A DNA stretch of 55,264 nt, taken from contig CACZJR010000005.1 in NCBI GenBank assembly GCA_902781545.1, positions 1-55,264 of the forward strand, written 5' to 3'. This document shows, one piece after another, positions 12,309-33,884 of the stretch (position 1 is its first letter; the number at the start of each line of letters is the position of its first letter). The notes under the pieces were generated by a model. That model had not been told where the DNA came from. It saw only the letters and a list, made by a program, of their open reading frames with translations, and did no database searches. The position numbers and the translations under genes are program-made. This DNA comes from an uncultured Spirochaetales bacterium. GTDB lineage: Bacteria; Spirochaetota; Spirochaetia; Sphaerochaetales; Sphaerochaetaceae.

Positions 12309-13136
12309 ATGGAAGGCTTCAAGACAGATGTCAGAGTGATCTGCTGTGACATTGACGGCACCCTGGTGCGTGACGACAAATCCCTCAGCGAGGAGAACAT
12401 CAGATGGATCCACAAGGCGGTCCATGAGGCCGGCGTGCACTTCACGCTTGTCTCAGGACGCATGGTGAGCGGTGTGCGCCCGTTCTATGACAGGATGGGG
12501 ATCACAGGACCCGTGTCATGCTACAACGGCGGGACGCTGGTGGACGAGGACGGCAACATCGTCGATGACCACCGCATGGGCCACGACATAGCCATGGCGC
12601 TGATGGACATCCGCGACAAGTTCAAGGCCGATGCCCTGATCTTCGACGGCATGAGATGGTTTTTGGAGACACGAGACTGCTATCCTTACAAGCCAAAGGT
12701 CAAGATCTACGAGTGCGACTGCGAGGTCGGACCTTTCAGGGAGCTCTTGAAGAAGTTCGACACGAACAAGGTCATCTTCATGTCAAAGGATGATTCTGTG
12801 CTTGAGAATGTCAGGCAGGAGATCCTCAGGACCATAGATCCCTCGAAGGTGACACTCTACAGGAGCGGGGACTTCCTGGAGGTCATGGCAAGCGGCTATG
12901 ACAAGGGAAGCGCAATCGATGCCCTGGCGCGCCACTACAGGATAGAAGCCTCGCACATCATGGCCCTGGGAGACGACTACAACGACATTCCCATGCTGAG
13001 AAAGGCCGGCTACTCCGTGGCCATGGAGAACGCAGTTCCCGAGGTCAAGGCCGCAGCCAGATACATCACCGACACAAACAACAACGACGGTGTGGCCAAG
13101 GCAATCAAGAGATACGTCTTCGGGATTGAATCTTAG
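12309..13136 (+). CDS. Cof-type HAD-family sugar/cofactor phosphatase
   Basis: A HAD hydrolase of about 275 residues with motif [10 protein letters not shown] near residue 12, motif II TLVSGRM, a type-IIB cap domain, a Lys in [10 protein letters not shown] and motif [16 protein letters not shown]. This is the complete Cof pattern. Members dephosphorylate sugar phosphates, FMN or PLP-pathway intermediates, and the substrate cannot be read from sequence. ATG 12309 has GGAGG five bases upstream, better than ATG 12288, which adds seven residues. It follows ecfT closely and its stop overlaps the converging DUF711 gene by 4 bases. Confidence 0.9.
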
Positions 13137-14497
13137 TTCTTGAAACTGTGCACCGGGGCGGGTATACGTCCGCCGCGGGAGATGAAGTCCTCACATGAAT
13201 AAGGGTTGACCCTCATTACCGGGCCGCTTCCGAGAAGGCCACCGAACTCTGCGGTCTGTCCCTCGTCCTTACCCTCGACAGGAATGATCCTCACCGCGGT
13301 TGTCTTCTGGTTGATCATGCCTATGGCCATCTCATCGGCGATTATTCCCGAGATGGTGGACGCGCTTGTCTTTCCCGGAACAGCTATCATGTCCAGTCCC
13401 ACGGAGCACACGCAGGTCATTGCCTCCAGCTTCTCCAAGGTCAGGCAGCCCTTGATGGCGGAGCTGATCATGCCGTGGTCCTCAGAGACAGGTATGAAGG
13501 CACCTGAGAGTCCGCCGACATAGCTTGAGGCCATGATGCCGCCCTTCTTCACCGCATCGTTGAGAAGCGCAAGGGCCGCAGTCGTTCCCGGAGCTCCCAC
13601 CATCTCAAGGCCCATGGACTCAAGGATCTCTGCGATCGAGTCGCCCACAGCAGGTGTGGGTGCAAGTGAGAGATCGACAATGCCGTACGGGATCCCCAGC
13701 CTGCGCGATGCCTCCTGAGCCACCAGCTGGCCCAGCCTGGTGACCTTGAACGCCGTCTTCTTGATTGTGTCGCAGAGCTCGCCGAAGGGCCTTCCCTTCA
13801 CGCTCTGGATGGCATGGTTGATCACTCCCGGGCCTGAGACACCTACGTTTATCACATCATCGGTCTCTGTCACGCCGTGGAAGGCACCGGCCATGAACGG
13901 GTTGTCATCGGGTGCGTTGCACAGAACCACCAGCTTTGCGCATCCTATGGAGTCCTGATCCGCGGTAAGGTGTGCCGTCTGCTTGATGATCTGGCCCATC
14001 AGCCTCACGGCGTCCATGTTGATTCCGGTCTTTGTGGAGCCCAGGTTCACGGAGGCGCACACACGCTCCGTCTGGCTCAGGGCATCCGGGATGGATCTGA
14101 TAAGAAGCTCCTCGGATCTTGTCATTCCCTTGGCAGGCAGGGCGGAGAAACCTCCGAGGAAGTTCACGCCCACCTCTTTGGCAGCCTTGTCCAGGGTCCT
14201 TGCGATCCTCACATAATCGTCAGTGCTCTTACATGCGGAGGCTCCGATCAGGGCAATCGGAGTGACTGAGATGCGCTTGTTTACAATCGGGATGGCGTAC
14301 TCGCGCTCTATGTCATGGCCTGTCTTGACTAGGTCCTTGGCAGTTTGTGTTATGCGCCTGTAGATGTTGTCACACAGTGTGCCCACATCATCGCTTATGC
14401 AGTCCAGAAGTGAGATTCCCAATGTGACAGTCCTCACATCAAGGTTCTCCTTCTCTATCATCTGGTTGGTCTCAATGACTTCGTTGATGTTTATCAT
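13133..14497 (-). CDS. UPF0210/DUF711 (PFL-like) protein
   Basis: A 454-residue protein of the DUF711/UPF0210 family, recognised from [14 protein letters not shown] at the start, [27 protein letters not shown], a Gly-rich NVGVSGPGV and [17 protein letters not shown]. The family has a glycyl-radical-like (PFL) barrel but no proven activity. It is nearly always paired with a small ACT protein, as here, where the ACT gene ends 7 bases upstream. The pair may be an amino-acid-responsive unit. It is last in the long minus-strand cluster. Confidence 0.9.
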
Positions 14498-14504
14498 AGT
14501 GCCC

Positions 14505-14783
14505 TCAGATCCTCTGCATGCTCTTGAAGATGTCCTCTCTCTGGAGCTTGATCATCACACCGATTCTCTTGCCCAGGTCCTCAAGCTCCTGGGACAGGGT
14601 CAGGAACTCCCTGTTGGCCTGTGTGGCATCGACAATCATCATCATGTTGAAGTATCCGCCCACAATCGACTGTGAGATGTCCTCTATGTTGACGTTGCAC
14701 TCATAAAGGTATGTTGTGACGCGGGCGATGATACCGACCTGGTCCTTGCCCACCACTGTGATGATTGACTTGCTCTTTTCCAT
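14505..14783 (-). CDS. ACT-domain protein (UPF0237)
   Basis: A 92-residue stand-alone ACT domain: [36 protein letters not shown] is the beta-alpha-beta ligand fold with the conserved Gly at the first turn. ACT domains bind amino acids. A GAGGTG site lies about eight bases before the start. It is immediately upstream of its usual partner, the DUF711 gene, and 42 bases downstream of the trmD fusion gene. It is probably a sensor subunit for the DUF711 protein, based on conserved pairing rather than direct evidence here. Confidence 0.9.
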
Positions 14784-14825: not shown

Positions 14826-16046
14826 TTATTGCAACAGTGACAGGAAGAGACTCCGGTCAAGGGGCTCCTCAGGCATGCCGTCGGAGAACCTGCCTGTGAG
14901 ATTCGCCTCAAGGCTCTCCAGGCATGTGTCAATGTCATTCTGCCTGGATCCGACGGTGCAGTATCCCAGGTCAATGAAACCTGTGATTCCTCTGTTGTCC
15001 GCAAATATATTTGGCAGGCAGAAGTCTCCGTGGGAGAGCACGGGGTCCTTGCAGTCCCCGGCCTCGGATCTGAACGGACAGTCTGAGACATCAACAGCCC
15101 AGAGCATCTTCATGGCAGCGGCGGCGCTCTTGAGGAGCCTGCTTCTGTTATGCAGGATCTTCGGGTCACAGAGCATTCTGCCCTTGAGCCTGGTCATGAG
15201 GATGTAGGACAAGCCGTCCTTCTCAGAGTGATGAAGGACATCGGGGACCGGAAGCCTGCCTTTGAGCCAGAGCATGGCCTCAAGCTCCCGCCTTGACTGA
15301 GGGCCCTCCTTCTGGATCTTGAGCACGCAGGAGTCAAAGACAAGGACCCTTGCCCCGGAGCATCCGGTGCTCTCCGAAGGTATCTCGTCAAACAGGTCCG
15401 GCCTGTGCTTTATAGTCTCAATGATAGCCTGTTTTTGTCTCCACTCTTTGATTCTTGCATCATTTCCGCTTAATAGGACATCAGGAACGGTCTTTCCGTC
15501 AAACTCAAGAGGATGGGTGTAATGCGGATACTCCAACAGTCCTGTCTCAAAGCTCTCATCCTCGGCAGAGCCCTCGCGGAGGCTTCCGTCCAACAGCCTT
15601 ATGACGCTGTCACACACCGTCATGGCCGCAAGCTCACCGCCTGTGAGGATGAAATCCCCTATGGAGATCTCCTCATCCACGTAGGCGCTGATCCTTGCGT
15701 CAAAGCCCTCATAGTGTCCGCAGACAAGGACCAGATGCTCAAGAGCGGCATACTCATGTGCCTTCCTCTGGTCGAAGCGTTTTCCCTTCGGGGAGAGAAG
15801 CACAACACGGGATTCCTTTTCTCTCACTGCATTTATGGCCTTTGAGACAGTATCAACCCTCAGGACCATGCCCGGGCCTCCGCCATAAGGCGAGTCATCT
15901 ATCTTGCGGAATGAGCCCTGGGCATAATCACGGATATCTACGACTTCCAGCTCAAGGCCGCTGTTCTTCCTGGCCTTGCCTATCACAGAGGATTTCCCGA
16001 AGCTCTCGAATGACTCCGGCGATACTGAGAGGACGGAGATGCGCAT
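14826..16046 (-). CDS. trmD: Fusion: tRNA (guanine37-N1)-methyltransferase TrmD + APH(3')-like kinase
   Basis: One uninterrupted 406-codon frame. Residues 1-~222 are a full TrmD, the SPOUT enzyme that methylates G37 of tRNAs with SAM. It shows SPYGGGPGM (52-60), CGHYEGFD (109-116), SIGDFILTGGELAAM, YPHYTHP and LLSGNDARIKEWRQKQ. The residue before Ser165-Phe166 is Glu164, where TrmDs usually have the catalytic Asp. Residues ~228-406 resemble aminoglycoside 3'-phosphotransferases: Lys243 in VLKI, WLKGRLPVPDVLH, DVSDCPF, the HGD catalytic loop (Asp341, Asn346) and FIDLG (Asp359). The usual helical insert between DCPF and HGD is reduced to about a dozen residues. The start lies 3 bases after hypA. 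The kinase substrate is unknown. Confidence 0.9.
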   Translation of the reverse strand: MRISVLSVSPESFESFGKSSVIGKARKNSGLELEVVDIRDYAQGSFRKIDDSPYGGGPGMVLRVDTVSKAINAVREKESRVVLLSPKGKRFDQRKAHEYAALEHLVLVCGHYEGFDARISAYVDEEISIGDFILTGGELAAMTVCDSVIRLLDGSLREGSAEDESFETGLLEYPHYTHPLEFDGKTVPDVLLSGNDARIKEWRQKQAIIETIKHRPDLFDEIPSESTGCSGARVLVFDSCVLKIQKEGPQSRRELEAMLWLKGRLPVPDVLHHSEKDGLSYILMTRLKGRMLCDPKILHNRSRLLKSAAAAMKMLWAVDVSDCPFRSEAGDCKDPVLSHGDFCLPNIFADNRGITGFIDLGYCTVGSRQNDIDTCLESLEANLTGRFSDGMPEEPLDRSLFLSLLQ

Positions 16047-16049
16047 GAC

Positions 16050-16421
16050 TCAAGTCTCCACGGAACCGGGAGCTTTGTCCACCACCTCAATCTCCTTGAT
16101 CATGAACTCGTTTCCCTGGACAAGATAGGTGTTCAGGCTCCCGCAGTAAGGACATGTCTTGCCGTGCTGGACCGTAGGATACTCCCGTTTGCAGTCCTCG
16201 CATAATGTGACCGCGGGAATGATCTCGATCTTTATCCTGCAATCCTTGAGGACAGTCTCCTTCTTGACCGCCCAGTTCCAGCAGTCCTCGAAGAGATAAG
16301 GGATGACCGTGGAGACCTCGCCGAGCTGGATCGTCACGCTGCTTACGCGGCTCACCTTGTTCTCGGCGGCAATCTCATTCACTTCCTTGATGCAGTGGAA
16401 CACCACCCCCAGCTCGTGCAT
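16050..16421 (-). CDS. hypA: Nickel metallochaperone HypA
   Basis: A 123-residue HypA. The N-terminal Met-His-Glu is the nickel site (the chain starts MHELGVV), and a zinc site is formed by Cys74/Cys77 and Cys90/Cys93 (CEDC...CPYC). HypA delivers nickel, with HypB, to [NiFe]-hydrogenase or other nickel enzymes. The ATG overlaps the stop of the large oxidoreductase gene as TGATG. No hydrogenase subunit or hypC-F gene is in the window, so the client enzyme is elsewhere or not a hydrogenase. Confidence 0.93.
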   Translation of the reverse strand: MHELGVVFHCIKEVNEIAAENKVSRVSSVTIQLGEVSTVIPYLFEDCWNWAVKKETVLKDCRIKIEIIPAVTLCEDCKREYPTVQHGKTCPYCGSLNTYLVQGNEFMIKEIEVVDKAPGSVET

Positions 16422-19249
16422 CAGTCCTGGTCCTTGGGCCTTGTGAAGACAATCTTCGCGGCACGCTTGGCCATGTAAGGCAGAAGGGCTCCGAACTTCT
16501 TCTCGGCCACTGTCATCTTGCTGGCCTCAGGATGGTCGCGGTGGAGCGTGATGGCATCGAACTTGCACTTGGTGGTGCAGATTCCGCAGCCTATGCACCT
16601 GTTCTGGTCCACGATCGTGGCACCGCAGCCAAGGCACCTTGCGGTCTCCTTTTTGACCTGCTCCTCGGTGAGGATTCCCTTTGACTCCTTGAAGCCCTTG
16701 GGATCCACACCCTCGATCTCACCCTCCTCCTGACGGCCGGCCGTGTCATAGCTGTCCACGAGGATGTCATCCTTGTTCAGCTCTATGAACTCCCTTCTGT
16801 TCTTTCCGATCGTCATGTGACCGTGCTGGACATAGCGGTGCAGCGAGTCCGATGCCTCATGGCCTGCGGCAATGGCGTCTATGGCGAACTTCGGTCCGGT
16901 GTACACATCACCGCCGACAAAGATGTCAGGCTCCGCAGTCTGGTATGTGAGCTTGTCAGCCACAGGACCGTTTCCGCGTCCGAACTCGACCTTGGTGCCC
17001 TTCAGGAGATCTCCCCACTGGATTGACTGGCCGATCGCGAATATGACTTTGCCTGCGGGGATCTCTATTGTCTGCTCCTCGTCATAGAGCGGTGAGAAGC
17101 GGTGGTTCTCATCAAACACGCGGGTGCACTTCTTGAAGACTATGGCACTGACCTTTCCGTCCTTTGTAAGGACCTCCTTCGGACCCCAGCCGAAGCGGAT
17201 GTCGACGTTGTCCTCCCTTGCCTCGGCGACCTCAGCCTTTGTGGCAGGCATGATGTCCTCTGTCTCAAGGCAGAGCATTGTGACCTTGGCGGCCCCGCTT
17301 CTCGCGGAGACCCTGGCCGCGTCAATGGCGACGTTTCCTCCGCCTACAACAACGACCTCTGTCCCGGCCTCATATCTGAAGGCTCCGGTGTTGGCGGTCT
17401 TGAGGAACTCAACTGCGGTTGTGGTGCCTTCGGCATCCTCCCCAGGAATTCCCGGAAGACGTCCGCCCTGGCAGCCGATGGCCACGTAGAAGGCCTTGTA
17501 TCCCTGCTCCCTGAGCTGTGCGATAGTCACATCACGGCCGACCTCGACGCCTGTCTTAATCTCGACGCCCATCTGGCGCATGACATCGATCTCGGCATCG
17601 ATGATGTCCTTCTCAAGCTTGTATGACGGGATTCCGTATGTGAGCATTCCGCCGGGGCGCTCGTTCTTCTCGAACACTGTGGGATAGTAGCCCATCTGGG
17701 CAAGATAGAAGGCACATGAGAGACCTGCGGGGCCTCCTCCGATTATGGCGATCTTCTCCTTCCATCTTCCGCGGTTGGATGCCACGACTATCTCAGGAAC
17801 GTAGCGTGTCTCCGCATTGAGGTCCTGCTGGGCGATGAACTTCTTGACGGCGTCAATCGAGACTGCCCTGTCGATCGTGCCTCTGGTGCAGGCGTCCTCG
17901 CATCTCTTGTTGCAGACTCTTCCGCAGACAGCGGGGAACGGATTCTCCTTCTTGATCAGCGCAAGGGCATCCTTGTACTCGCCCAGTGCCGCCTTCTTCA
18001 GGTAGCCCTGGACCGCGATGTGCGCAGGACATGCTGTCTTACACGGCGATGTTCCGGTCGTGTGGCAGTTGATGCGGTTCTTGTCCCTGTAGTCCTCATC
18101 CCACTTGTCCTTGCCCCACTTGCGTGCATCAGGCATGATCTGCTTCGGATACTTAACCTCGGATCCGTCAGCCTTGCAGAGCTTCTGGCCAAGCTTCAGG
18201 GCTCCTGCAGGGCAGTACTCGACACACTGGCCGCACGCCACGCACTTTGTCTTGTCCACATGTGCCCTGTAGGCGCTTGCGCTCATGTTCGGGGTGTTGA
18301 ACAGCTGGCTGGTCCTGAGTGCGTTGCAGATCTTGACGTTGCAGTTGCAGATGGCGAAGATCTTGTTCTCTCCGTCGATGTTCGTGATCTGATGGACAAA
18401 GCCGTTGTCCTCTGCCCTCTTGAGGATCTCCATTGCCTGCTCATAGGTGACATCGTAGCCGCGGCCTGTCTCACGGCAGTAGTCGGCCATGTCACCCACG
18501 CCAATGCACCAGCCCTCGTAATCGTCTGCGCAGCCCTCATCCATCTTCTTGCGGCCGTAGCGGCAGGAGCAGATGGAGGCCCCGAGGTGTCCCTCGTACT
18601 TCTTGAGCCAGTAAGAGATGTGCTCTATGTCCGCGGTCTGGTTCTCCAGGCTGATCGCCTTCTCGACCGGGATGACGTGCATTCCTATTCCTGCTCCTCC
18701 GGGCGGGACCATGGCGGTAATGTGCTCCAGAGGCAGGAACGTCATGCGCTCGAAGAACATCGCCAGCTCAGGATGCCTGTCCATCAGGGCCTTGTTCATG
18801 TTGGTGTACTCCGCGGAGCCCGGGACAAAGAGAGGAACCCAGTAGTTGCGGTCCTCCTTGTTGTATGTGGTGCCGGGGATGGGGCCGTCCTTGGTGTACT
18901 TGTCGCCGTAGTCGTACTCGAGCATTCCTATCTGTGTGAGCTTGAACACAAGCTCCTCAGACTTCTCACCCATGCCCACGGCCTGAGCCATCCTCATGAC
19001 CTCCGCATGCGGATACTTCTTCCTGGTCTTCATCTGGTTCAGCAGGTCAAGGCATGCCTCGGACTCATCCTTGGGGAACTCGTCCTCGAAGATGCATGCA
19101 AAGCCCCAGTACTCGGGGTCTGTAGTCTTGATTCCCTTGATCTTCCCGGGGATCCTGTCCGTGACTCTTCTGACAAACTTCAGAAGTTTCGGGTTGGGGT
19201 TCTCATCGTGCATGTGCTTGGGCACGAACTTTGTACTCATCTCCGGCAT
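16421..19249 (-). CDS. GltD-like flavoprotein fused to iron-sulfur modules
   Basis: A 942-residue soluble oxidoreductase between hypB and hypA. Residues 1-~320 form a helical, winged-helix-like region ending in a Cys motif set (CSCRYGRKKMDEGC and CNCNVKIC). A ferredoxin motif CVACGQCVEYCP follows at 336-347. A dihydropyrimidine-dehydrogenase-type Fe-S domain runs from ~395 to 470 (SPCKTACPAHIAVQGYL, VCGRVCNKRCEDAC). A GltD-type FAD/NAD(P)H domain has GGGPAG (504-509) and GGGNVA (636-641). A C-terminal ferredoxin pair begins with CLGCG at 872. It is built to move electrons between NAD(P)H, FAD and several clusters. AAGGAGG seven bases upstream fixes the start. The physiological reaction is unknown. 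Confidence 0.88.
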   Translation of the reverse strand: MPEMSTKFVPKHMHDENPNPKLLKFVRRVTDRIPGKIKGIKTTDPEYWGFACIFEDEFPKDESEACLDLLNQMKTRKKYPHAEVMRMAQAVGMGEKSEELVFKLTQIGMLEYDYGDKYTKDGPIPGTTYNKEDRNYWVPLFVPGSAEYTNMNKALMDRHPELAMFFERMTFLPLEHITAMVPPGGAGIGMHVIPVEKAISLENQTADIEHISYWLKKYEGHLGASICSCRYGRKKMDEGCADDYEGWCIGVGDMADYCRETGRGYDVTYEQAMEILKRAEDNGFVHQITNIDGENKIFAICNCNVKICNALRTSQLFNTPNMSASAYRAHVDKTKCVACGQCVEYCPAGALKLGQKLCKADGSEVKYPKQIMPDARKWGKDKWDEDYRDKNRINCHTTGTSPCKTACPAHIAVQGYLKKAALGEYKDALALIKKENPFPAVCGRVCNKRCEDACTRGTIDRAVSIDAVKKFIAQQDLNAETRYVPEIVVASNRGRWKEKIAIIGGGPAGLSCAFYLAQMGYYPTVFEKNERPGGMLTYGIPSYKLEKDIIDAEIDVMRQMGVEIKTGVEVGRDVTIAQLREQGYKAFYVAIGCQGGRLPGIPGEDAEGTTTAVEFLKTANTGAFRYEAGTEVVVVGGGNVAIDAARVSARSGAAKVTMLCLETEDIMPATKAEVAEAREDNVDIRFGWGPKEVLTKDGKVSAIVFKKCTRVFDENHRFSPLYDEEQTIEIPAGKVIFAIGQSIQWGDLLKGTKVEFGRGNGPVADKLTYQTAEPDIFVGGDVYTGPKFAIDAIAAGHEASDSLHRYVQHGHMTIGKNRREFIELNKDDILVDSYDTAGRQEEGEIEGVDPKGFKESKGILTEEQVKKETARCLGCGATIVDQNRCIGCGICTTKCKFDAITLHRDHPEASKMTVAEKKFGALLPYMAKRAAKIVFTRPKDQD

Positions 19250-29886: not shown

Positions 29887-30834
29887 ATGGATTTTGTTGT
29901 AAACACACTGACACTCACAGTCCGTTTCGCAGTAACCCTGATGATTGCCTCAATGGGAGAGATGTTCAACCAGAAGGCAGGTATCTTCAACCTCGGTTGT
30001 GAGGGAATTATGAGCGTGGGAGCCTTTCTGGGAATGCTCATCCCCTTCACCATCATCGGACCGGGCACAGCACCGGGATATGTCAATATCCTGGGTCTTG
30101 TGGCTGGAACCGTGGCAGGATGCCTTCTCGGACTTCTCTTCGGAGTGATTGTCATCACATTCCGCGCCCCGCAGGGAATAGCAGGAATCGGAATGCAGAT
30201 GTTCGGTGTCGGACTTGCGGGAACATTCTTCAGGTCCTACATCGGAGGCACGCAGTCAATCACCGGAATCTCATCCTTTGAGATCCCCCTTCTCTCAAAG
30301 ATCCCAGTGCTGGGCAAGATACTGTTCACCCACAACCCGTTGGTATACTTCGCATACCTTCTGGTACCGGTCGCATGGTATGTGATTTTCAAGACCCCAT
30401 GGGGCCTGAAGGTCAGGGCCGTGGGAACACATCCAAGGGCCGCAGACTCTCTCGGAATCAATGTCACGAGGATCCGCTTCCAGAGCCTTGCAGTCGGAGG
30501 AGCCATGGCAGGCTTCGCAGGAGCTTTCCTCACCCTCTGCCAGGCCAAGATGTTCAACGCCGACATCATCAACGGCCGCGGATTCATCGCAGTTGCCCTT
30601 GTCTACTTCGGACAGTGGCACCCGATCAAGATATTCCTCGGTGCCCTGCTGTTCACATTTGCGCAGACACTGCAGACACAGATCCAGATCTTTGTCCCGC
30701 AGTTCCAGTATTATGAGTTCCTCACGATGCTGCCGTACATCCTCGTCATAGTGGTTCTTGCCTTCAACCGCAAGTCCAACAGGCTCGGACCTACAGCACT
30801 CGGAAGACCGTTCAACAGGGAGATGCGTGTGTGA
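29887..30834 (+). CDS. Nucleoside ABC transporter permease 2
   Basis: A 315-residue second permease (NupC/YufQ-like) with about eight membrane segments. It shows FNLGCEGIMSVGAFLGML in the first third and the coupling loop KVRAVGTHPRAADSLGINVTRI. GGAGG upstream supports the start. Its final GTG-TGA overlaps the GTG start of the molybdenum hydroxylase gene, which ties uptake and oxidation of the substrate together at the translational level. Confidence 0.93.
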   Translation: MDFVVNTLTLTVRFAVTLMIASMGEMFNQKAGIFNLGCEGIMSVGAFLGMLIPFTIIGPGTAPGYVNILGLVAGTVAGCLLGLLFGVIVITFRAPQGIAGIGMQMFGVGLAGTFFRSYIGGTQSITGISSFEIPLLSKIPVLGKILFTHNPLVYFAYLLVPVAWYVIFKTPWGLKVRAVGTHPRAADSLGINVTRIRFQSLAVGGAMAGFAGAFLTLCQAKMFNADIINGRGFIAVALVYFGQWHPIKIFLGALLFTFAQTLQTQIQIFVPQFQYYEFLTMLPYILVIVVLAFNRKSNRLGPTALGRPFNREMRV

Positions 30835-33800
30835 ACATCACTCTGACGGTCAACGGCAGGACTGTCTCTCCAGAAAGAGACAAGAAGCTTCTCAGGTATC
30901 TCAGGGACGACCTCAGGCTGACATCCGTCAAGGACGGGTGCTCCGAGGGCGCCTGCGGTGCCTGTACAGTCCTTGTTGACGGAAAGCCCGTCCGCTCCTG
31001 CTCCGTGCTCCTGTCAGAGATTAACGGATCATCGGTGACGACCCTTGAGGGGATTCCCGAGAAAGAGAAGGAGATCTACACTGCTGCATTCGGCCAGGCC
31101 GGTGCGGTCCAGTGCGGCTTCTGCACCCCGGGCATGATCATCTGCGCAAAGGGACTTCTGGATGAGAAACCCCATCCGTCGGAGAACGATATCCGTCACG
31201 CGATACGCAACAACATCTGCCGCTGCACAGGCTATGTGAAGATCGTCAAGGCAATCAGGCTGGCTTCCGAGATGCTGCTTGACGGCAAGAGCATTGACGA
31301 TGACCGGAACTGGAAGATCGGCATGCGCGTGCCGCGCGTCGATGTCCTGGACAAGACCACAGGCAAGGCAATCTATCCTGATGACATCTACATGGACGGC
31401 ATGCTCTTTGCGGTTGCTGTCAGAAGCAAGTATCCGAGGGCACGTGTGCTCTCAATAGACACAAAGGCCGCGTCAGAGGTGTCCGGGGTCGTGAGGATCC
31501 TCACCGCTTCTGACATTCCCGGTGACATCAAGGTCGGACACCTGAAACGTGACTGGGACACGATGATTGCAGTAGGAGGCATCACACGTTATGTGGGAGA
31601 TGTCATCTGCCTGATCGCGGCTGAGTCCTACAAGGCGGCAAAGAAGGCGGCGAAGCTGGTGAAGGTAGGCTATGAGGTGCTGCCTTTTGTGAGTAACCCC
31701 TATGAGGCCATGCGTGATAATGCCCCTCAGATCCATGAGGACGGCAACCTCCTGGGCCACACCCATATCAGCCGCGGTGACGCGGACAGGGCCATCCGGG
31801 AATCGGATCATGTCATAACAGAGCGCTTCTCCACCCCGTGGACGGAGCACGCTTTCCTTGAGCCGGAATGTGCGGTCTCTGTCCCGGAATCTGACGGGGG
31901 AGTCAGGATCTACTCAACAGACCAGGGTGTCTACGACACAAGACGTGAGACTGCCCCGATGCTCGGACTTCCCGAGGAGATGGTTCGCGTTGAGAACTGC
32001 TACGTAGGCGGAGGATTCGGTGGCAAGGAGGATGTGACTGTGCAGCATCTGAGCGCGCTGGTCGCATACCTGACAAAGCGGCCGTGCAAGATGAAGCTCA
32101 CCAGGGAGGAGAGCCTTGCGGTCCATCCCAAGCGCCACCCGATGGACATGGAGTTCGCCCTTGGATGTGACAAGGACGGAATCATCAAGGGCCTGAAAGC
32201 AAAGGTCATCTCCGATACAGGCGCATATGCCTCACTGGGCATTCCCGTGCTCCAGAGGGCCTGCACCCATGCATCAGGGCCGTACAACTACCAGAACCTT
32301 GAGATAGACGGATACGCATACTACACAAACAACCCGCCTGCCGGTGCCTTCAGGGGCTTCGGAGTCACCCAGACCTGCTTTGCCATAGAGTCTCTTCTGA
32401 ACTACATGGCCGACGAGGTCGGAATCTCGCATTGGGAGATAAGGTACCGCAACGCCATCAGACCGGGCCAGTGCCTCCCGAACGGCCAGATAGTTGATGA
32501 CTCCACAGGCCTTGTTGAGACCCTTCTGGCTGTCAAGGATGAGTTTGAGTCCCATGAGAACACAGGAATAGCCTGCGCCATGAAGAACGCAGGCGTGGGT
32601 GTCGGAATCCCTGATTACGGACGTGTGAGACTTGAGGTCAAGAACGGCAAGGTCCTTATCCACTGCGGAGGCTCATGTCTGGGCCAGGGCCTTTGCACCG
32701 TGCTCAAGCAGATAGTCTGTGATGTCACAGCTCTTCCATCCGACCTGGTCGTAGAGGAACGCTCCAACACGGCAAACGCCCCGGACAGCGGCACATCCTC
32801 AGGCTCAAGGCATACCACCATCTCAGGAGAGGCGGCACGACGTGCAGCCCTGAAGCTCAAAGAGGCCTTAGGTGAAAACAATAGCCTGAATGAGCTTGAA
32901 GGGCGAGATTTTTATGCTGAATACCTGGCTAAGACGGACCCGTTCGGCTCGGATCTTCCGAATCCAAAGAGCCATGTGGCCTACGGTTATGCCACCCAGA
33001 TCTGCATACTGGATCCAAGGACAGACAAGATAAAGCGGATAGTGGCGGCCCACGATGTCGGGCGCGCGATCAATCCCACGAACGTGGAGGGCCAGATAGA
33101 AGGCGGCGTTGTAATGGGCCTTGGCTATGCGCTCCGCGAGCGTTATGACCTTGAGAACTGCATCCCTCCGGTAAAATACGCTTCCCTTCAGCTTTTCCGC
33201 GCCGATGAGGTCCCGGAGATCAGGCCGGTGATAGTCGAGCGCGCAGGCCTTGATGTCGGAAGCGGCGCCATAGGCCTTGGAGAGATAGTCTCCATCCCCA
33301 CTGCCCCTGCGGTTGCTGACGCTTACTACAGGCTTGACGGAATCCGCAGGCGCAACCTGCCTGTGATTGACACCCCTTATGAGGATATTGAGCAGAGACT
33401 CGCCACCAGGAAGGCAAGGATGCTTGTGATCAACAAGGACGCAAGATGCATCGGATGCTATGAGTGCGTCCATGCCTGCTCCAAGTCCTACTTCAGGACC
33501 AACAAGGCCTCAATGGCGTTCATCCGTGTGCAGGAGAAGGAAGGAGTCGGCAACAAAAGCGCCATTGAGGGAAAGATCACAAGGCCTGTGGTTTGCATAC
33601 AATGCGGCAAATGTGCTAAAGTCTGCCCTATCGGGGCAATCAGGCAGAACCGCTACGGAGCCTATGTCGTTGACATCAAGATGTGCATAAACTGCGGCAA
33701 ATGCAGGGAGGCATGTCCGTTCGGCGTAATGGTCGAGGACACAGACAGCAATGTCACGAAGAAGTGTCTTGCATGCGGGACCTGCGTGAAAGCCTGCTCC

Positions 33801-33884
33801 ATGGGAGTTCTGAGCCTTTACTCACCGCCTGAGCCCATACTGGAACAGGTGAAGCTTCCCCGGGTGCCAGAGGACAAGAGATGA
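30831..33884 (+). CDS. Single-chain molybdenum hydroxylase (xanthine dehydrogenase-like) with polyferredoxin tail
   Basis: A 1017-residue enzyme of the xanthine dehydrogenase family. Residues 1-~150 hold two [2Fe-2S] clusters (Cys37/42/45/57 and Cys95/98/130/132). The molybdopterin domain (~158-860) has [34 protein letters not shown] and the catalytic-Glu region [14 protein letters not shown]. Residues 862-1017 add four [4Fe-4S] motifs, starting at Cys873, 922, 952 and 979. The FAD domain of classical enzymes is absent, so the electron partner is probably ferredoxin. Purine hydroxylation is inferred from the upstream nucleoside transporter and the yqeB/yqeC genes at 50.4-51.9 kb. The GTG start overlaps the permease stop. 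Confidence 0.9.

Follow-up and report, generated by a model that had tools for sequence, protein, structure and literature searches.

In an uncultured Spirochaetales bacterium of the family Sphaerochaetaceae, a single reading frame joins a complete tRNA m1G37 methyltransferase (TrmD) domain to a kinase domain of aminoglycoside phosphotransferase, APH(3'), descent. The frame lies in the window analysed here (the whole stretch of 55,264 nucleotides). Judging from the reading frames compared, the TrmD-APH fusion is real and recurrent, and its architecture and history are very probably as described below. The methylase half belongs to a second TrmD paralogue, here called TrmD2. The fused gene, its two domains and its neighbours are as follows.

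14826..16046, minus strand: trmD2-aph fused gene, from open reading frame and translation (ATG start; 406 codons plus stop)
15381..16046, minus strand: TrmD domain (SPOUT m1G37 methyltransferase), residues 1-222 (TIGR00088, 280 bits; alignment with E. coli TrmD)
14829..15380, minus strand: APH(3')-derived kinase core, residues 223-406 (PF01636, NF033068; alignment with APH(3')-IIIa)
16050..16421, minus strand: hypA, hydrogenase/urease nickel metallochaperone (PF01155, 103.7 bits)
14505..14783, minus strand: ACT-domain protein (PF13740, 50.9 bits)
13133..14497, minus strand: DUF711 protein, 3' of the ACT protein (PF05167, 647 bits)

In profile searches the TrmD half exceeds the TIGR00088 cut-off (280 versus 195 bits), as well as the curated cut-off of a second family model (281 versus 220 bits), and scores 187 bits with PF01746. 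The kinase half is matched by PF01636 in two stretches (60.5 bits, cut-off 23.2) and falls below the cut-off of the APH(3') model NF033068 (127.5 versus 205 bits). Only 3 bases separate hypA from the fused gene on the same strand, an order found identically 5' of the fusion in a second genome (G009), and the two genes are probably co-transcribed. In these two genomes the same apparent operon also holds a 942-residue multi-domain Fe-S/pyridine-nucleotide oxidoreductase (window positions 16421-19249), flanked by a hypB-like gene and hypA. On the 3' side, the ACT-domain gene follows after 42 bases and adjoins the fusion in 5 of the 7 fusion genomes of the window's genus (g1); the DUF711 gene adjoins the ACT gene in G006 as well. 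This ACT-domain gene, limited to g1, is the sole recurring neighbour, no partner gene being conserved across genera; the window contains no Rfam element at the gathering threshold. Elsewhere in the window, behind nucleoside-ABC-transporter-like genes, a 1017-residue frame (30831-33884) looks by eye like a xanthine-dehydrogenase-like [2Fe-2S]/molybdopterin protein with C-terminal 4Fe-4S ferredoxin repeats.

An identical TrmD-to-kinase joint is present in 18 separately assembled genomes belonging to three genera (g1, g11 and g16) of one family. Six of them, besides that of the window (G000), are of genus g1, one ending with its contig just past the joint and another lacking the start, and eleven further fusions come from g11 and g16; thirteen genomes of g8, g11, g16 and g19 carry TrmD2 without the kinase domain. 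The initial annotation had read the 406 codons as one TrmD-APH frame, which the open reading frame and the family matches bear out, and had asked whether the junction recurs in other spirochaetes, as it does. It had also left room for a frameshift or stop at the junction and for close relatives in which the two genes are always separate: neither internal stops nor frameshifts occur in the 17 fused frames tested, and six other genomes of the genus have the fusion. A phage origin of the fusion was considered and rejected, phage records giving TrmD-length matches only and no fusion.

The TrmD to which the kinase is joined is complete, as had been proposed, though it is not the genome's housekeeping enzyme. 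That role falls to another TrmD of 247 residues (L002), which occupies the rpsP-rimM-trmD-rplS slot in the order ffh-rpsP-KH-rimM-trmD-rplS. The L19 protein of this genome has the Borreliella ribosome 8fmw as its second-ranked PDB match, after 5myj, which fits a place in the Spirochaetia. Among 395 sampled genomes of the class, those outside the window's family nearly all show just one TrmD match; where a few show two, weak best scores suggest split genes. Within the class, the TrmD2 paralogue was seen in that family only. The fused TrmDs, the unfused TrmD2 of the family and the second copies of gut Lachnospiraceae and Erysipelotrichaceae metagenome-assembled genomes (MAGs) form one clade (96 SH-aLRT; 100/98 in the careful tree), placed among Bacilli-type TrmDs and separate from the canonical TrmD clade of the class (99); TrmD2 was therefore probably acquired by horizontal transfer. 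A single clade of the fused TrmD domains alone was not rejected (p-AU 0.094). Within the TrmD2 clade, two proteins from Erysipelotrichaceae MAGs (L171 and L172, from G165 and G167) have an HD-domain (PF01966) hydrolase as in-frame fusion partner, G167 holding another TrmD outside the clade; the TrmD2 branch has therefore gained C-terminal partners more than once.

The residues of the methylase tell two stories. The window copy has Asp50, Arg150 (Arg154 in E. coli) and Glu164 (Asp169 in E. coli), and across the fusions the catalytic arginine is retained in 18/18, the glutamate at 169, shared with the canonical TrmDs of the class, likewise in 18/18, and Asp50 in all 17 that cover the region. It is thus likely, on these residues, that the TrmD2 domain still N1-methylates G37. 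The docking residues have changed: the window copy has Asp196 at the position of His201 and His178 at that of Arg183, His201 being replaced in each of the 18 fusions, while 100/100 canonical TrmDs and 12/13 unfused TrmD2 proteins have it, and Arg183 being histidine in 18/18 fusions. In the complex of Haemophilus influenzae TrmD with tRNA, the motif Ser198-Gly199-His/Asp200-His201 recognises the G10:C25 pair, while a phosphate of the anticodon stem is bound by Arg183 (PMC5372744). That the fusions have lost precisely these D-stem and anticodon-stem contacts suggests a re-arrangement of tRNA docking on the arrival of the new domain.

As to the ancestry of that domain, the fused kinases form a clade (99/96) with the standalone chromosomal APH(3') of four g16 genomes (G080, G081, G107 and G108); APH(3')-IIIa is its neighbour, and its members have indels in common. 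These standalone enzymes (L185-L188) look intrinsic, with near-complete catalytic and aminoglycoside-binding residues, and lie in a conserved context with a coaE-like and a peptidase-like gene adjacent (by eye). The fused domain of G006 is the sole one to pass the NF033068 cut-off (216.8 versus 205 bits), that of G004 falling just short of it (201.4 bits). Phylogeny and shared indels show the C-terminal domain to have begun, at the level of sequence, as a family-specific APH(3') lineage. A fold search with the whole-protein models gave TrmD entries only, among the matches listed, so that the evidence for a kinase fold comes from sequence families and secondary structure.

In APH(3'), aminoglycosides are bound by the helical insert between DCPF and HGD, by Arg211 and by the C-terminal Asp261, Glu262 and Phe264. 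Aligned with APH(3')-IIIa, IIa and Ia, the window copy lacks the insert, the Arg211 equivalent and the C-terminal DELF tail, the counterparts of Asp261, Glu262 and Phe264 being missing, and keeps Lys243, Glu254, Asp341 (HGD), Asn346 and Asp359 (IDLG). All six g1 fusions that cover the region retain Lys44, Glu60, Asp190, Asn195 and Asp208 (IIIa numbering) and have lost Arg211 and Phe264; four of them also lack the insert and the tail, and these short copies, the window's included, conserve an identical minimal core. The eleven g11 and g16 fusions went further: N, A, S, K or R stands in place of Asp190, almost all lack Lys44, and eight lack Asp208, so the domain there is, by its residues, a pseudokinase. 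The pseudokinase domain nevertheless has a dN/dS of 0.19-0.23 between close relatives (upper confidence limit at most 0.41), similar to that of the TrmD half, and is under purifying selection at the codon level; for the g1 kinase domain the value is 0.18 (upper limit 0.29). The modelled domain of G072 is confident, most blocks exceeding 90 pLDDT. The comparison shows, as far as alignments can, a step-wise loss under purifying selection, of substrate-binding residues and, in two genera, of catalytic residues also, and a role other than that of a drug kinase is inferred for the retained domain. The initial annotation had named Lys243, Asp341, Asn346 and Asp359 exactly, had seen the fusion and the missing insert, and was right that the kinase residues of this copy are intact; it foresaw neither the canonical second TrmD, nor the loss of docking residues, nor the full APH(3') of G006, nor the catalytically dead domains of other genera.

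A candidate substrate emerges from the tRNAs. G37 occurs in 12 of the 43 tRNAs of the window's genome, and 11 of these follow the G36G37 rule, G10:C25 being present in ten; the sole G37 tRNA without G36 is tRNA-Val(GAC) (L237), which has C36-G37 and A10:U25. Within the family this tRNA has either A37 or G37, varying even between close species. Of the TrmD2 genomes that gave a readable gene, 25/25 have G37 (16 fused, 9 unfused), against 16/67 of the genomes without TrmD2; the count leaves out four TrmD2 genomes of the species tree without a readable tRNA-Val(GAC). The association has a Fisher p of about 5e-12 ignoring kinship and of 3e-5 within g16, while an independent-pairs test on the species tree counts about 3 concordant pairs and no discordant one (p=0.25). 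Some of the 16 genomes with the G37 type and no detected TrmD2 are more than 95% complete, so TrmD2 is not strictly needed for it. Likewise, Erysipelotrichaceae genomes with a canonical TrmD as the only one found also have the G37 type, which makes the Firmicutes uninformative as an independent test. Asp50, which reads G36, is conserved in TrmD2, unexpectedly for a C36 substrate, and unfused TrmD2 genomes with the same G37 tRNA-Val(GAC) keep His201; its loss therefore tracks the fusion and not this tRNA. As a substrate of TrmD2, tRNA-Val(GAC) is a lead, and a rather doubtful one. A link between TrmD2 and an unusual number of tRNAs was rejected, genomes having 42-48 tRNAs with or without it.

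The tRNA-Val(GAC) gene lies 0.06-3 kb from 10 of the 11 pseudokinase fusions, a linkage due largely to a single ancestral locus close to an integration site. A tyrosine-recombinase-like gene (by eye) stands directly beside it in G075 and G123 (L148:8242-9510 and L403:10113-11357), and in G075 a partial copy of the tRNA is found some 21 kb away (C15:58397-58438); tRNA-Val(GAC) is therefore taken as an integration site. The notion of TrmD2-pseudokinase as cargo of an integrative element was dropped in spite of the flanking recombinase-like gene, no second att copy being found within stretches of up to about 20 kb on each side.

The explanation tentatively favoured here, and held with somewhat less than even confidence, is that TrmD2 is a specialised G37 methylase in which a recycled kinase domain helps to position the RNA, tRNA-Val(GAC) being the best candidate target. 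A horizontally acquired second TrmD would have been joined to a former APH(3') domain and would still methylate G37 with SAM as donor. Sitting just behind the TrmD C-terminal domain, which normally touches the D-stem, the kinase fold might act mainly as an RNA-positioning or dimer/regulatory module replacing the lost His201 and Arg183 contacts, and not as a drug kinase; the docking role as such is about as tentative as the explanation as a whole. The target would be a G37 tRNA outside the canonical TrmD rules and handled poorly by the housekeeping TrmD: without TrmD2, tRNA-Val(GAC) would carry an unmethylated, frameshift-prone G37 while reading GUC and GUU. The boldest form, in which the domesticated aminoglycoside-kinase fold took over the docking contacts and TrmD2 is the dedicated m1G37 enzyme of this rule-breaking tRNA, is unlikely as it stands.

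There is perhaps one chance in several, expressed loosely, that in g1 the C-terminal domain has kept its kinase activity, with a small molecule or the methylated tRNA or protein as its substrate and TrmD2 tethering it near translation. The complete catalytic set of the six g1 fusions, the shared minimal core of the four short ones and the low dN/dS in g1 would fit such an enzyme, against which stand the uniform loss of Arg211 and Phe264 in g1, the deletions in four copies, and the eleven other fusions that lost the catalytic aspartate yet kept the domain.

Similarly improbable is a chance fusion, in which capture behind TrmD2 secured the expression of an intrinsic aminoglycoside-resistance kinase that is now a decaying passenger. 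The same-lineage standalone APH(3') of the four g16 genomes and the ongoing loss of substrate and catalytic parts speak for it, and unfused TrmD2 nests near the fusions, so that the domain is dispensable. A passenger would, however, not be expected to keep an open frame, nor a dN/dS of about 0.2 in both the pseudokinase and the g1 domains, nor to coincide with a loss of His201 and Arg183 reported as limited to fused copies. Chance capture for expression had been offered by the initial annotation too; as the capture of an active kinase, it leaves the purifying selection on the pseudokinase domain unexplained.

Decidedly less probable is that TrmD2 serves as a redundant or inhibitor-resistant TrmD backup against an antibiotic or an anticodon-targeting gut toxin, the APH domain being a relic of resistance. 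TrmD is essential and a drug target (PMC7641325), and TrmD2 is patchy, apparently horizontally acquired and has relatives in gut Firmicutes MAGs; yet the neighbouring genes read give no resistance or defence context, and the fusions have lost the very residues that dock canonical tRNAs. Finally, the source genomes are mostly fragmented, MAG-like drafts, and two genes might have been joined artificially during assembly or binning; this is refuted by 18 separate assemblies that share the in-frame joint, by the intact frames and by the fact that both domains diverge together.

As far as the open-licence literature searched goes, neither a conserved TrmD-kinase architecture nor a lineage holding two divergent TrmDs seems to have been described, and the same is true of a series of relatives in which a drug-modifying kinase decays into a pseudokinase that is retained. 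The system offers a test of how tRNA methylases change their substrate rules (C36-G37, no G10:C25) and of the recruitment of a resistance-type fold into core translation; if the favoured explanation is true, an antibiotic-resistance fold has been recycled as an RNA-specificity module. It also carries a warning for annotation pipelines, since by the curated APH(3') cut-off the G006 fusion would be taken for an aminoglycoside-resistance gene.

Compared with known systems, the fused protein resembles TrmD (TIGR00088/PF01746) in its full domain above the cut-off and in keeping the SAM/knot region, Asp50, Arg154 and an acid at 169. It differs in being a second copy outside the rpsP-rimM-trmD-rplS operon with an extra C-terminal domain, in the signature S45-F46 where canonical TrmDs mostly have K/R-H, and in the loss of Arg183 and of the His201 of the SG(H/D)H motif. 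No TrmD-kinase fusion was found in the open-licence literature, where the only TrmD fusion found described is TrmD-Tm1570 of Calditerrivibrio nitroreducens (PDB 8B1N), with two SPOUT domains, an intact SGNH motif (His at 201) and an active TrmD part (PMC11187310). Both proteins pair TrmD with a C-terminal partner, which is a SPOUT methylase attached to the universal TrmD in the one and a kinase fold attached to a second paralogue in the other. With APH(3') (NF033068; APH(3')-IIIa, PDB 1J7L), the C-terminal domain shares fold and sequence and, in the window copy, the catalytic Lys44, Asp190, Asn195 and Asp208, unlike which it is under the cut-off, without insert, Arg211 and DELF tail, and a pseudokinase in two genera. 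The g16 standalone APH(3') are sister to the fused kinases, with a common short nucleotide loop and GxYxGG insertion, but are separate genes with all catalytic and most aminoglycoside-binding residues intact. The TrmD2-HD fusions of Erysipelotrichaceae MAGs, lastly, belong to the same TrmD2 clade, but their partner is an HD-domain hydrolase.
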